DNA of 54,894 nucleotides from an uncultured bacterium (GTDB lineage: Bacteria > Bacteroidota > Bacteroidia > Chitinophagales > CAIODY01): the NCBI GenBank assembly GCA_903857255.1, contig CAIODY010000094.1, positions 1 to 54,894 of the forward strand, given 5' to 3'. Positions 20,366 through 24,782 of the stretch are shown here, piece after piece; the first letter of the stretch is position 1; each line of letters begins with the position of its first letter. Both the position numbers and the translations under genes were made by a program. The notes beneath the pieces are model-generated. The model worked only from the letters and a program-made list of their open reading frames with translations, made no database searches and was not told the origin of the DNA.

Positions 20366-21844
20366 ATGCAAAAAATCATCATCATCGGCTCGGGGTTCTC
20401 ATCTATTGCGGCTGCGGCGTTTTTAGCGCAAGCGAAAATGGATGTAACTGTGTTGGAAAAAAACAGCATGGAAGGCGGCAGAGCGCAAATTTATAAAGCA
20501 GATGGTTTTACGTTTGATATGGGACCAAGTTGGTATTGGATGCCTGATGTGTTTGAAAGGTTTTTCAATCAATTCAATTTTTCCGCAAAGGATTTTTATG
20601 AATTAAAACGCTTAAATCCAAGCTACACAGTAGTTTGGAGCAAAACCGAAGAATGGAAAATTCCTGCTACCACCAATGCTTTGGCTGATTTATTAGAACA
20701 AAAAGAAAAAGGAGCAGGAAAAAAATTGCACCGATTTTTAGCGCAAGCAGCCATCAAATATCAAGTGGGAATCAACAATTTGGTGATGAAGCCCGGAATA
20801 AGTGCCACTGAATTTTTCAACAAAGAATTTGCGAAAGGAATTTTTCAGTTGGACGTTTTTTCCTCCATGAAAAATCATGTGGCAAAATATTTCAAAGATG
20901 AAAAAATAAAGCAGTTGTTAGAATTTCCAGTTTTGTTTCTTGGTGCTGAAGCAGATGATACGCCTGCGTTGTACAGCTTGATGAATTATGCTGATATAGA
21001 ATTAGGTACTTGGTATCCGATGGGTGGCATGCATGAAATTGCAAAAGCCATGCGGAAAGTTGCAGAACAAAATGGCGCAAAATTTATTTTTAATCAGGAA
21101 GTTATTGGTTTTGATTTTGATGAAAATAAAATCGAAAAAGTAAAAACTCAATCGGCTGAATATGCAGTCGATACAGTGGTTTCGGGTGCTGATTATTATT
21201 TCACCGAAAAATTATTGCCAACAAAATTTCAGAATTATTCCGAGGATTATTGGCAAAGCAGAAAGTTAGCGCCATCGTGTTTACTGTATTATGTTGGGTT
21301 GAATAAAAAATTGCCTGATGAAGTAACTCATCACACTTTATTTTTTGATGCTGATTTTGAATTGCATTCCAAAGAAATTTACCAGCAGCCGCAAATGCCC
21401 ACCAATCCATTGTTTTATATGTGCTGCCCATCAAAAATAGATGATAGTGTTGCACCAAAAAATCACGAAAATTTATTCTTGCTAATTCCAATTGCAACCA
21501 ATTTAAAAAATGATGATGAAGCAACTAGAGAAAAATATTTTCAGGTAATGGTAAAAAGAATTCAGGAAAGATATGGTGTTGATATAACTGAAAACATTGT
21601 TCACAAGCGCAGTTTCAGCGTTCGCGATTTTAAAAGCGAATACAATTCTTTCAAAGGAAATGCGTATGGTTTGGCAAATACACTTTTACAAACAGCCATT
21701 TTGAAACCAAAAATAAAAAGCAAAAAAGTTAAAAATCTCTACTTCACTGGTCAGCTAACAGTGCCTGGACCTGGCGTTCCGCCTGCATTGGTGAGCGGTG
21801 AAGTGGTGGCGAAATATATTTTAAAACAACAACAAAACATTTAA
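20366..21844 (+). CDS. crtI: Phytoene desaturase CrtI
   Basis: The 492-residue enzyme begins with the FAD-binding loop IIIGSGFSSIAAAAFL, then EGGRAQIYKADGFTFDMGPSWY in the usual arrangement for CrtI-type desaturases. The C-terminal signature is GQLTVPGPGVPPALVSGEV. It takes phytoene to lycopene by successive desaturations at the membrane. The gene is first of a carotenoid run (crtI, crtB, idi, crtZ, lycopene cyclase). A 127-base gap precedes it, with no exact -7 box seen. It is the right length for the family. Confidence 0.95.
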   Translation: MQKIIIIGSGFSSIAAAAFLAQAKMDVTVLEKNSMEGGRAQIYKADGFTFDMGPSWYWMPDVFERFFNQFNFSAKDFYELKRLNPSYTVVWSKTEEWKIPATTNALADLLEQKEKGAGKKLHRFLAQAAIKYQVGINNLVMKPGISATEFFNKEFAKGIFQLDVFSSMKNHVAKYFKDEKIKQLLEFPVLFLGAEADDTPALYSLMNYADIELGTWYPMGGMHEIAKAMRKVAEQNGAKFIFNQEVIGFDFDENKIEKVKTQSAEYAVDTVVSGADYYFTEKLLPTKFQNYSEDYWQSRKLAPSCLLYYVGLNKKLPDEVTHHTLFFDADFELHSKEIYQQPQMPTNPLFYMCCPSKIDDSVAPKNHENLFLLIPIATNLKNDDEATREKYFQVMVKRIQERYGVDITENIVHKRSFSVRDFKSEYNSFKGNAYGLANTLLQTAILKPKIKSKKVKNLYFTGQLTVPGPGVPPALVSGEVVAKYILKQQQNI

Positions 21845-22034
21845 ACACATAGGCACAAAGGATTTTATAAAGAAAATACAACGCTGATTTTGTTTGAAAT
21901 AAAGCAAAGCTTTCTTTGATTTCTATTCCACCTGAAAGTTTTAATTCAAGAAAAAAAATAGGCAAATAAATTTTTAAACATAGAAATACAGTTGATTCTA
22001 AAAACGATAAAACTATGAACCTATGTGTTTTAGA
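21841..22034. repeat. Inverted-repeat element between crtI and crtB
   Basis: A left arm at 21841-21869 (AAACACATAGGCACAAAGG and following) is an imperfect inverted copy of the right arm at 22006-22034 (AACCTATGTGTTTTAGA). The first 11 bases of the arms match exactly and the rest in part. The element fills nearly the whole 204-base gap and starts inside the crtI stop codon. The inside (21870-22005) has AAAGCTTTCTTTG and a second ACATAGAAATACA word. It contains no gene. It resembles a small inverted-terminal-repeat (MITE-like) element, but no flanking target duplication was found by eye. Confidence 0.6.
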
Positions 22035-22048
22035 AAACAAAAACAATC

Positions 22049-22897
22049 ATGACGAACATTCAACTCTACAACAAAGTTTGTTTTGAAAACAGTAAAACGA
22101 TTACGGAGCGATACAGCACTTCGTTTTCGTCAGCCATTCAATTGCTGCATCCCTCCATGCGTTCAGCCATTCATGGTATTTATGGATTTGTAAGATTAGC
22201 CGATGAAATTGTGGATACATTTCATGATGCTGATAAAGAAAATTTGTTGGCTGAATTTAAAACAGAAACCTACAAGGCAATAGCACAGCGCATTTCATTG
22301 AATCCTGTGTTGCATGCTTTTCAAATGACGGTGAATAAATATCACATCGAACAGCATTTGATTGAAGCATTTTTTTGCAGCATGGAAATGGATTTGCACA
22401 AGAAAAAATATGAAACGGCAAAGGAATACAACGACTACATTTATGGTAGTGCCGAAGTGGTTGGCTTGATGTGTTTGTATATTTTTTGCAATGGCGATAA
22501 AGAAAAATTCATGTCGCTCGAAAGCTCAGCACGAGCTTTGGGTGCGGCTTTTCAGAAAATAAACTTTTTGAGAGATGTGAAAGATGATGTGAAATTATTG
22601 AACAGAACTTATTTTCCGAATGTTGATTTTGATTTATTGAATGATGAAGTGAAACAAAAAATTGTAGATGATATTGAGATTGATTTTAGAAACGGATTGA
22701 AAGGAGTTCGTCAATTGCCCGTTGGTAGCAGGTTTGGTGTTTATGTGGCGTATAAATATTATTATTCGTTGTTTAAAAAAATTAAACGATTGCCCACAAA
22801 AGCAATAACGCAACAACGAGTTAGAATTGCTGATTACTCGAAATTATTGATTGTTTTTAAATCGTTTTTTCGATATAAATTGCAAATGATGTATTGA
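22049..22897 (+). CDS. crtB: Phytoene synthase CrtB
   Basis: The 282-residue enzyme is a squalene/phytoene synthase. The first Asp-rich motif ADEIVDTFHD has Asp52 and Asp56, and the second, LRDVKDDVKLLNRTYFP, has Asp176, Asp179 and Asp180. These bind the magnesium and diphosphates of two geranylgeranyl diphosphates as they are joined to phytoene. The tail is rich in basic and aromatic residues. It sits in the carotenoid run, 204 bases downstream of crtI, that gap being filled by the inverted-repeat element. Confidence 0.95.
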   Translation: MTNIQLYNKVCFENSKTITERYSTSFSSAIQLLHPSMRSAIHGIYGFVRLADEIVDTFHDADKENLLAEFKTETYKAIAQRISLNPVLHAFQMTVNKYHIEQHLIEAFFCSMEMDLHKKKYETAKEYNDYIYGSAEVVGLMCLYIFCNGDKEKFMSLESSARALGAAFQKINFLRDVKDDVKLLNRTYFPNVDFDLLNDEVKQKIVDDIEIDFRNGLKGVRQLPVGSRFGVYVAYKYYYSLFKKIKRLPTKAITQQRVRIADYSKLLIVFKSFFRYKLQMMY

Positions 22898-22920
22898 GTT
22901 GAGCATGTAAAAATGTGCTT

Positions 22921-23020
22921 GTATTTGCGGCAGGGATTGAAGTGGAAATCCTTTTGCAGCGTATGTTTTGAGCGTTGGAGCAAAAGATTGAAACGAAAAG
23001 CCCGTATGCCGCCCAAAGAA
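22921..23020 (+). ncRNA. Structured intergenic element between crtB and idi
   Basis: A stretch with several matching stems. The outer pair is GCGGCA at 22927-22932 and TGCCGC at 23007-23012. Inside is a hairpin GGATT (22934-22938) with AATCC (22947-22951), and a longer one CTTTTGCAGCG (22951-22961) with CGTTG plus GCAAAAG (22973-22986). Two blocks stand out, GGGATTGAAGTGGAAATCC and GATTGAAACGAAAAGCCCG. I have the impression that similar blocks recur between genes of other Bacteroidetes. Function is unknown; it could be a structured RNA, a leader or a mobile repeat. Reverse-strand frames across it are not real genes. Confidence 0.45.
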
Positions 23021-23033
23021 AAAAAACAAAAAA

Positions 23034-23543
23034 ATGACAGAAGTAATTTTAGTAAATGAAAATGATGAAGCGATTGGAACGATGGAAAAAATGCAAGCGC
23101 ATCGTGAAGGAAAATTGCATCGTGCATTTTCTGTTTTTATTGTGAATAGCGAAGATAAAATGCTGTTGCAAAAACGTGCTGCAAAAAAATATCACAGTCC
23201 AAACCTTTGGACTAACGCTTGTTGCAGCCATCCTGCGCCTGATGAAAATATTTTTGACGCTGCAAAAAGAAGAGTGAAAGAGGAGTTGGGGATGGATGTA
23301 AATGTGTTTGAAAATTTGTTTTCATTTCGATACAAAACTTTGTTGGAAAATGATTTGATTGAGCATGAATTGGATTATGTGTTGTGGGCAAAAAGTGATG
23401 CGATTGTAAAATTAAATGAGGATGAAGTGAGCGATTTTATATTTTTATCGAAAGAAGAAATAAAAAACAAATTGGCTGAAAAGCCTGAACAGTTCACGGT
23501 TTGGTTTAAGTTGATATTTCCGAAAATTGAAAATTTGTTTTAA
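23034..23543 (+). CDS. idi: Isopentenyl-diphosphate delta-isomerase, type I
   Basis: The 169-residue protein has the type I isomerase pattern. HRAFSVFIVN lies at about residues 29-38, LLQKRAAKKYHSPNLWTNACCSHP holds the active-site cysteine at about residue 64, and the Nudix-type box AKRRVKEELG holds the catalytic glutamate. It interconverts IPP and DMAPP, feeding the carotenoid pathway. It lies between crtB and crtZ, so it supplies the same pathway. The structured element just upstream ends 13 bases before its start. Confidence 0.93.
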   Translation: MTEVILVNENDEAIGTMEKMQAHREGKLHRAFSVFIVNSEDKMLLQKRAAKKYHSPNLWTNACCSHPAPDENIFDAAKRRVKEELGMDVNVFENLFSFRYKTLLENDLIEHELDYVLWAKSDAIVKLNEDEVSDFIFLSKEEIKNKLAEKPEQFTVWFKLIFPKIENLF

Positions 23544-23550
23544 AGAAAAT

Positions 23551-23617
23551 GCCACAAAGACATTAAGGTACGAAGAAAATTTTGAAAAATAATTTTGTGT
23601 CTTTACGACTTTGTGGC
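23551..23617. repeat. Short inverted repeat between idi and crtZ
   Basis: The left arm GCCACAAAGACATTAAGG (23551-23568) matches in inverted form the right arm TCTTTACGACTTTGTGGC (23600-23617), with the first 9 bases exact. The sequence belongs to the same word family as the repeats at 11724-11776 and 21841-22034. It fills most of the 88-base gap. If transcribed it would form a stem with a loop of about 30 bases. Confidence 0.55.
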
Positions 23618-23631
23618 GAAATAAAAAATTT

Positions 23632-24099
23632 ATGTGGTTAAATATTTTATCGTTTTTACTTACGTTTTTTATAATGGAATTTGTGGCATGGAGTGCTCAC
23701 AAATTTGTGATGCATGGATTTTTATGGTATTTACATGAAGACCACCATTTAAAAGGCGAAGAAGGTTTTTTTGAAAAAAATGATGCTTTCTTTTTGATAT
23801 TTTCTATACCCAGTTTTTTGTTTTTTTTGTGTGGGGCTTTGTTTTTAAATTCTGTGCTAATCTGCATTGGAAGCGGCATTGCAGCTTATGGCTTGTGTTA
23901 TTTTTTGGTGCATGATGTTTTTATTCATCAACGATTTAAGTTGTTTAGAAATAGCAACAACAGGTATTTGAGAGCTGTTCGCCGAGCGCATAAAATGCAC
24001 CACAAACATTTGGGAAAGCATGATGGCGAATCGTTTGGCATGTTGTGGTTTCCGATAAAATATTGGTTGGAATCGAATGACAAAAAGAGTTTGATGTGA
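23632..24099 (+). CDS. crtZ: Beta-carotene hydroxylase CrtZ
   Basis: The 155-residue membrane protein carries four histidine motifs of the non-heme diiron hydroxylases: HKFVMH (residues 23-28), HEDHH (35-39), HDVFIH (94-99) and HKMHHKH (120-126). It adds hydroxyls to the beta-ionone rings, giving zeaxanthin. ATG 23632 is used: an in-frame TTG 21 bases upstream lies in repeat DNA. The stop overlaps the lycopene cyclase start by one base (TGATG), so the two are translated together. Confidence 0.95.
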   Translation: MWLNILSFLLTFFIMEFVAWSAHKFVMHGFLWYLHEDHHLKGEEGFFEKNDAFFLIFSIPSFLFFLCGALFLNSVLICIGSGIAAYGLCYFLVHDVFIHQRFKLFRNSNNRYLRAVRRAHKMHHKHLGKHDGESFGMLWFPIKYWLESNDKKSLM

Positions 24100-24782
24100 T
24101 GTTGCCAGAAAAATATTTCTACCTCACTATTGATGTGGCTTCGTTTGCATTTCCATTTTTATTTTCCTTTCATCCACGAATAAAATTTTATAAAAAATGG
24201 AAATTCTATTTGCCATCAATGCTGCTTACAGCCTTGTTTTTCATCATTTGGGATGAGTGGTTTACAAGAATGAATGTGTGGAGTTTTAATCCAAAATATT
24301 TACTCGGAATTTATGTTGGTCATTTGCCGTTGGAAGAAATTTTGTTCTTCGTTTTCATTCCTTATTGTTTGTCGTTTATGTTTCATTGTTTGCCATTGGG
24401 AACAAAAATTAATGAACAAAATTCTTGGCTAAAATTTTTGAATTGGGCGATTGCAATTTTCATCTTCATTATTGGAATTAGCAGTATTCATCAATGGTAC
24501 ACCGGTTTTACTTTTATTGCAACGGGATTATTTTTAGCAATAATTTTATTGCTCGACAAGCAAAATTTATTTCCTTGGAAACAATTTTGGTTCACCTATT
24601 TGTTGAGCTTAATTCCGTTTTTTATTGTGAATGGATTGCTGACTTCAATTCCAATTGTTACTTACAATAATGCTGAAAATTTGAGCATCAGAATTACTAC
24701 AATTCCTGTGGAAGATTCGGTTTACAATTTGTTGCTGTTTTTGTGCAACATAGCTGGGATGATTTTTTTTTTAAAAATCTAA
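24099..24782 (+). CDS. Lycopene cyclase (CrtYcd-like, fused two-domain type)
   Basis: The 227-residue protein has about six or seven membrane segments and two copies of the lycopene cyclase domain, as in the fused CrtYc/CrtYd or CarR type. The first copy carries WDEWFTRMNVWSFNPKY and the signature GHLPLEEILFFVFIP; the second has YTGFTFIATGLFLAII. It should cyclise lycopene to beta-carotene. In this run it completes the set from GGPP to zeaxanthin. ATG 24099 is preferred over a GTG at 24096. Its end is one base from the convergent PorW gene's stop. Confidence 0.88.
   Translation: MLPEKYFYLTIDVASFAFPFLFSFHPRIKFYKKWKFYLPSMLLTALFFIIWDEWFTRMNVWSFNPKYLLGIYVGHLPLEEILFFVFIPYCLSFMFHCLPLGTKINEQNSWLKFLNWAIAIFIFIIGISSIHQWYTGFTFIATGLFLAIILLLDKQNLFPWKQFWFTYLLSLIPFFIVNGLLTSIPIVTYNNAENLSIRITTIPVEDSVYNLLLFLCNIAGMIFFLKI

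Follow-up and report, generated by a model that had tools for sequence, protein, structure and literature searches.

A Flavo-1 element in the crtB-idi gap

The window, i.e. the whole stretch of 54,894 nucleotides analysed here, possesses a carotenoid gene cluster at positions 20366-24779. This cluster encodes a CrtID-type desaturase, a protein of the phytoene synthase family, isopentenyl-diphosphate delta-isomerase, a hydroxylase-like ORF (without family match in the domain search) and a lycopene cyclase domain protein. The gap between crtB and idi is 136 bases long and contains a structured element, which is in sense orientation and ends ~20 bases upstream of the idi start (Table 1). An imperfect inverted repeat of the CACAAAG/CTTTGTG type with weak arms lies directly downstream of idi (23548-23618); our impression is that it resembles another dispersed intergenic repeat of Bacteroidota.

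Table 1. Genes and structural features around the crtB-idi gap (window positions).
Feature	Position	Strand	Basis
crtB, squalene/phytoene synthase family, upstream gene	22049-22897	+	PF00494, E 5.2e-44
Flavo-1 element, Rfam RF01705, model positions 1-76 complete	22925-23011	+	55.5 bits, gathering score 42
Outer stem P1, 5' side (GCGGCA), unpaired in the Rfam model	22927-22932	+	co-varies with 23007-23012 in several families
Core hairpin, 5' arm (GGG-A-TT-GAA-GT-GGA-AATC-C)	22933-22950	+	alignment and covariation
Apical stem, 5' side (TTTTGC)	22952-22957	+	covariation among copies
Apical loop, variable in length and sequence	22958-22979	+	comparison of copies
Apical stem, 3' side (GCAAAA)	22980-22985	+	covariation among copies
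Core hairpin, 3' arm (GATT-GAA-AC-GAA-AA-G-CCC)	22986-23003	+	alignment and covariation
P1, 3' side (TGCCGC, 23007-23012), and conserved tail CCCAAA (23012-23017)	23007-23017	+	comparison of copies
idi, isopentenyl-diphosphate delta-isomerase, downstream gene	23034-23543	+	TIGR02150, 136.2 bits, cut-off 105.8

The match to RF01705 is the sole Rfam match of the whole window. The structure upstream of idi is a copy of a catalogued Bacteroidota hairpin family and an ordinary member of it, not the undescribed structured RNA considered in the initial annotation. Rfam types Flavo-1 as "Gene; sRNA", in line with its description as an sRNA that is not cis-regulatory (Weinberg et al. 2010, PMC2864571). 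It is listed as one of the more abundant "small RNA" families, and its function is not known (PMC9029176).

Conserved fold of the element

All sequence words quoted in the initial annotation are present in the element, namely GCGGCA and TGCCGC, which form the outer stem, as well as GGGATTGAAGTGGAAATCC (22933-22951), CTTTTGCAGCG (22951-22961), CGTTGGAGCAAAAG (22973-22986) and GATTGAAACGAAAAGCCCG (22986-23004). The conserved fold joins GGG to CCC (23001-23003) and AATC to GATT (22986-22989). From the three pairings proposed at first, the outer and the apical stem belong to this fold, whereas covariation places the GGATT/AATCC hairpin outside it. Indeed, base 4 of GATT is replaced by A, G or C in related copies, and the compensating substitution falls on the 3' arm (..AAGC, ..TAGC, ..CAGC, ..GAGC) and not in AATCC, which is almost constant; the GGATT/AATCC hairpin was therefore rejected. 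Among 76 parsed copies, base 4 and the base preceding AGC occur as T-A, A-T, G-C and C-G, with pairing in 49 of 51 copies of the long type (shuffle mean 22) and in 25 of 25 copies of the short type (shuffle mean 14). Covariation is also seen in the foot pairs and in the middle 2-bp stem. In the 14 copies from the window's genus, 98.7% of the pair cells are standard pairs and five pairs are altered on both sides; their pairing level was matched in 0 of 500 shuffles, and shifting one side by 1-3 columns left pairing at ~50% or lower.

The folding energy of the element is not unusual (-28.3 kcal/mol, z -1.32; 20 of 200 shuffles were equally good), and minimum free energy was rejected as proof of the fold because this z value is not significant. 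We accept the structure, as had been supposed initially, because comparison among copies proves the pairing, which energy alone does not. The two similar blocks noticed previously are not related half-units but the opposite arms, 5' and 3', of a single hairpin; they look alike owing to the symmetry and the purine-rich sequence of the 3x3 internal loops. One position of the short core type never forms a standard pair: 15 copies have T·T there and 10 have C·A, without any mixed combination. This position could be a required mismatch, or these could simply be two subfamilies.

The element extends beyond the Rfam model. The outer stem P1 reads GCGGC/GCCGC in the window's genus; the versions seen in four other families are GCGTG/CACGC, GCGTT/AACGC, GCACT/AGTGC, GCGAG/CTCGC and GCGCC/GGTGC. 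The next bases in most copies of the window's subfamily (several families) are CC(A/T)AA, and a small extra hairpin is sometimes found inside. P1 cells were paired in 204 of 210 cases (shuffle mean 159), a figure that leans upwards, as the copies were hand-picked and hand-parsed for this end.

Copy number and distribution

The window's genome possesses seven Flavo-1 copies, located beside unrelated genes, and related genomes possess from 0 to more than 60 (counts near 65 are lower bounds; three congeneric species have 33, 6 and 1, respectively). Across the phylum, Flavo-1 was found in 38 of 247 sampled genomes. Recurrence in other Bacteroidota intergenic regions and a repeat character, both suggested at the outset, are thus borne out; the opposite outcome named there was a single copy lacking covariation, and what was found is seven genomic copies and clear covariation. 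Every listed member of genus g52, which by inference is probably Flavobacterium, has at least 18 scored copies, and two complete genomes of this genus have 41 and 64 matches. The motif of the window is also present in two other genomes of its genus, a Chitinophagales MAG (CANFST01) and the uncultured MAG Umea1_bin-3847 (CAIQHW01). Copies within one genome have genome-specific outer parts in common. One Flavobacterium-like copy was also compared with phage and plasmid collections and gave no match.

Presence and absence at orthologous junctions

The crtB-idi junction is without the element in the congener G001 (two junctions; this assembly is 5% contaminated) and in three other family members (G003, G004 and G005); in these relatives, crtB and idi overlap or are ~10-70 bases apart. 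In G002 (83% complete), no match to idi was found. Further copies of the window's genome are missing from orthologous junctions as well, L005 and L006 in both G001 and G002, and L007 in G001. Other copies can persist, as two are common to the window's genome and G002 (L001=L153, with two differences in the element, and L004=L155).

The initial annotation had also considered a leader of idi. For such a cis-acting element (riboswitch, attenuator or translational control) speak the sense orientation and the short distance to the idi start. However, relatives have the same junction without it, other copies precede unrelated genes, and the hairpin is not followed by a U-run and therefore is not an intrinsic terminator. 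The leader explanation is largely refuted already, and we consider it extremely improbable.

G258 and G339, a Flavobacterium-like pair, have many copies in common; L197 is missing in G402. The orthologous elements L201 and L247 are 91% similar, compared with 44% for the upstream 100 bases, and L001/L153 is nearly unchanged while the upstream intergenic flank has diverged. Nearly intact pairing in most copies, together with orthologues that are more alike than their flanks, suggests selection or gene conversion acting on the element. The ordinary copies L193 and L192 of G258 have orthologues in G339, L270 and L271, respectively, with unchanged ends but a quite different and far longer apical hairpin, which hardly differs between these two loci. 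Different apical hairpins thus occur inside the same ends, and they have therefore been replaced or exchanged with pairing kept. As to the features expected of a MITE, element-free sites were found, but the junctions are too diverged, and the other intergenic DNA differs too, for a target-site duplication or a clean insertion boundary to be definable; an autonomous partner was not seen.

Gene context, orientation and transcription

The 108 copies with classifiable gene gaps comprise 44 codirectional-sense, 23 codirectional-antisense, 24 divergent and 17 convergent cases, close to the mix of background gaps at the same loci (132 codirectional, 42 divergent, 24 convergent); note that the ORFs for these classes were called mechanically, so that individual assignments may be in error. 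A leader is impossible between convergent genes and a 3' element between divergent genes, and copies are found in all gap types. This spread agrees with the transcriptome of F. psychrophilum, where Flavo-1 matches lie in sense or in antisense orientation relative to transcribed regions, many of the matches being untranscribed; given this mixed placement, the authors of that study could not assign a function to Flavo-1 (PMC9723704). Furthermore, the copies show no association with particular genes: among 381 ORFs, no recurrent neighbour gene family or cargo was found beyond orthologues and common families. The sense bias in codirectional gaps is weak (44 vs 23, p 0.014; in the window's genus, 9 of 14 copies are sense between codirectional genes) and leaves room for a role in transcripts. 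A replication-strand bias in G258 is not compelling, with 26 of 41 copies in leading orientation if position 1 is taken as the origin.

These data bear on the possibility that Flavo-1 acts as a true small non-coding RNA, or as an intercistronic RNA element, and is kept for an RNA function, e.g. binding a protein via its purine-rich loops. The strong compensatory pairing, the conservation of the purine-rich 3x3 loops, the mismatch that alternates between T·T and C·A, the near identity of L001 and L153 and the weak sense bias are all in its favour. Nevertheless, copies in every gene-gap type and in both orientations, their presence or absence between close species and the many untranscribed F. 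psychrophilum matches make this explanation unlikely.

Flavo-1 copies were also observed near rRNA operons. A copy on the opposite strand lies ~660-730 bases upstream of the 16S gene in all six examined operons of G339 (L259-L264) and in both examined operons of G258 (L265-L266), and in four of the six G339 operons another copy, on the same strand, follows 95-190 bases past 5S. Copies of G055 close to contig ends were suspected to mark rRNA operon borders as well; no rRNA was found there.

Flavo-1 and RAYT transposases

Dispersed intergenic multi-copy hairpins of variable copy number are typical of REP elements, and Flavo-1 shares this trait. It might therefore be a canonical REP element moved by a Bacteroidota RAYT (TnpA-REP) of subclass 2.6, the genes of which are reportedly flanked by "atypical secondary structures" (PMC6006769). 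RAYT-like genes (~180 aa, with YIHxNP motifs) are indeed present in many such genomes, including that of the window. However, the RAYT genes examined carry different flanking hairpins of their own, Flavo-1 is near only one of 20 RAYT loci, at a distance of ~1 kb, and no cognate transposase gene flanked by Flavo-1 was found at these loci. The Flavo-1-rich genomes G138, G192, G254 and G270 are without a PF01797 match; this counts for less than the flank test, since PF01797 aligns only partly with TnpA-REP proteins (PMC6006769). A GTAG or CGTC tag is not evident at the hairpin foot either, the ends of the window element and its copies being TTGC..GCCCAAA or TAGCCC..AGCTCC without such a tetranucleotide. 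With both the co-occurrence and the flank tests negative, RAYT transposase was rejected as the Flavo-1 mobiliser, and we regard a canonical REP/RAYT relationship as very improbable.

RAYT-like genes with YIHxNP motifs at L128, L132, L135, L140, L145, L146 and L147 are each flanked by different short hairpin copies, which apparently are their own REP-like elements.

Discussion

The element between crtB and idi is one Flavo-1 copy, and Flavo-1 in our opinion behaves as a dispersed, insertion-polymorphic, REP-like hairpin repeat rather than as a dedicated sRNA or riboswitch (probability about 0.78). Against this reading stand the near-complete pairing of most copies, orthologous elements that are more alike than their flanks, the weak sense bias, and the negative results for an insertion boundary and a mobilising enzyme. 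The repeat unit folds into a long imperfect hairpin with an outer stem, a core stem broken by purine-rich 3x3 loops, and an apical stem that varies. Insertion in this lineage is the most likely origin of the window copy between crtB and idi; relatives keep both genes almost touching. Copies presumably spread at the DNA level, either through an enzyme that transposes the folded single strand or through recombination or gene conversion. The element may be selected as a folded strand, with a behaviour comparable to that of REP/BIME, and gene conversion among copies would be an alternative way of keeping them alike. Should the crt genes be co-transcribed, it would be carried between two cistrons and could affect their processing or coupling, without being a dedicated regulator of idi; by analogy, any host role would probably resemble that of the E. 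coli REP/BIME elements.

A broader proposal is that Flavo-1 is a phylum-wide mobile DNA-hairpin family. An enzyme outside the known Y1/RAYT group would spread it, selection would act on its folded single strand, and in Flavobacterium it would have been recruited to positions flanking rRNA operons. No mobilising enzyme for Flavo-1 was found in the genomes examined, the checked Y1/RAYT transposases carrying other hairpins, and we put this proposal forward only tentatively, as a doubtful possibility.

New here are the co-varying mismatch, the evidence that speaks against a dedicated sRNA or leader role of Flavo-1, the P1 stem with its CCCAAA tail and the placement of copies beside rRNA operons; the last three need independent confirmation. 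An insertion-polymorphic Flavo-1 would change the annotators' reading of the family and poses the question which enzyme moves or homogenises the copies. For the window, the idea of an idi-specific switch is removed.

In comparison with known systems, the window element is closest to Flavo-1 as catalogued, with a full-length match above the gathering score and the same core hairpin, purine-rich loops and variable apical stem. In contrast to the Rfam model, the window's subfamily adds an outer stem (GCNNN/NNNGC) and the CCCAAA tail, which are unpaired in the model. The published reading as an sRNA that is not cis-regulatory (PMC2864571) fits poorly with the presence/absence pattern observed here. 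Flavo-1 differs from the REP/BIME/REPIN elements of Proteobacteria and the RAYT systems in being longer (~90 bases), in having no evident GTAG/CGTC tag, in not flanking the RAYT genes tested, and in its extensive compensatory changes, including the co-varying mismatch. Nevertheless, it resembles them (PMC3733652, PMC6006769) as a short, dispersed, intergenic imperfect hairpin that forms genome-specific families and varies in copy number between relatives.
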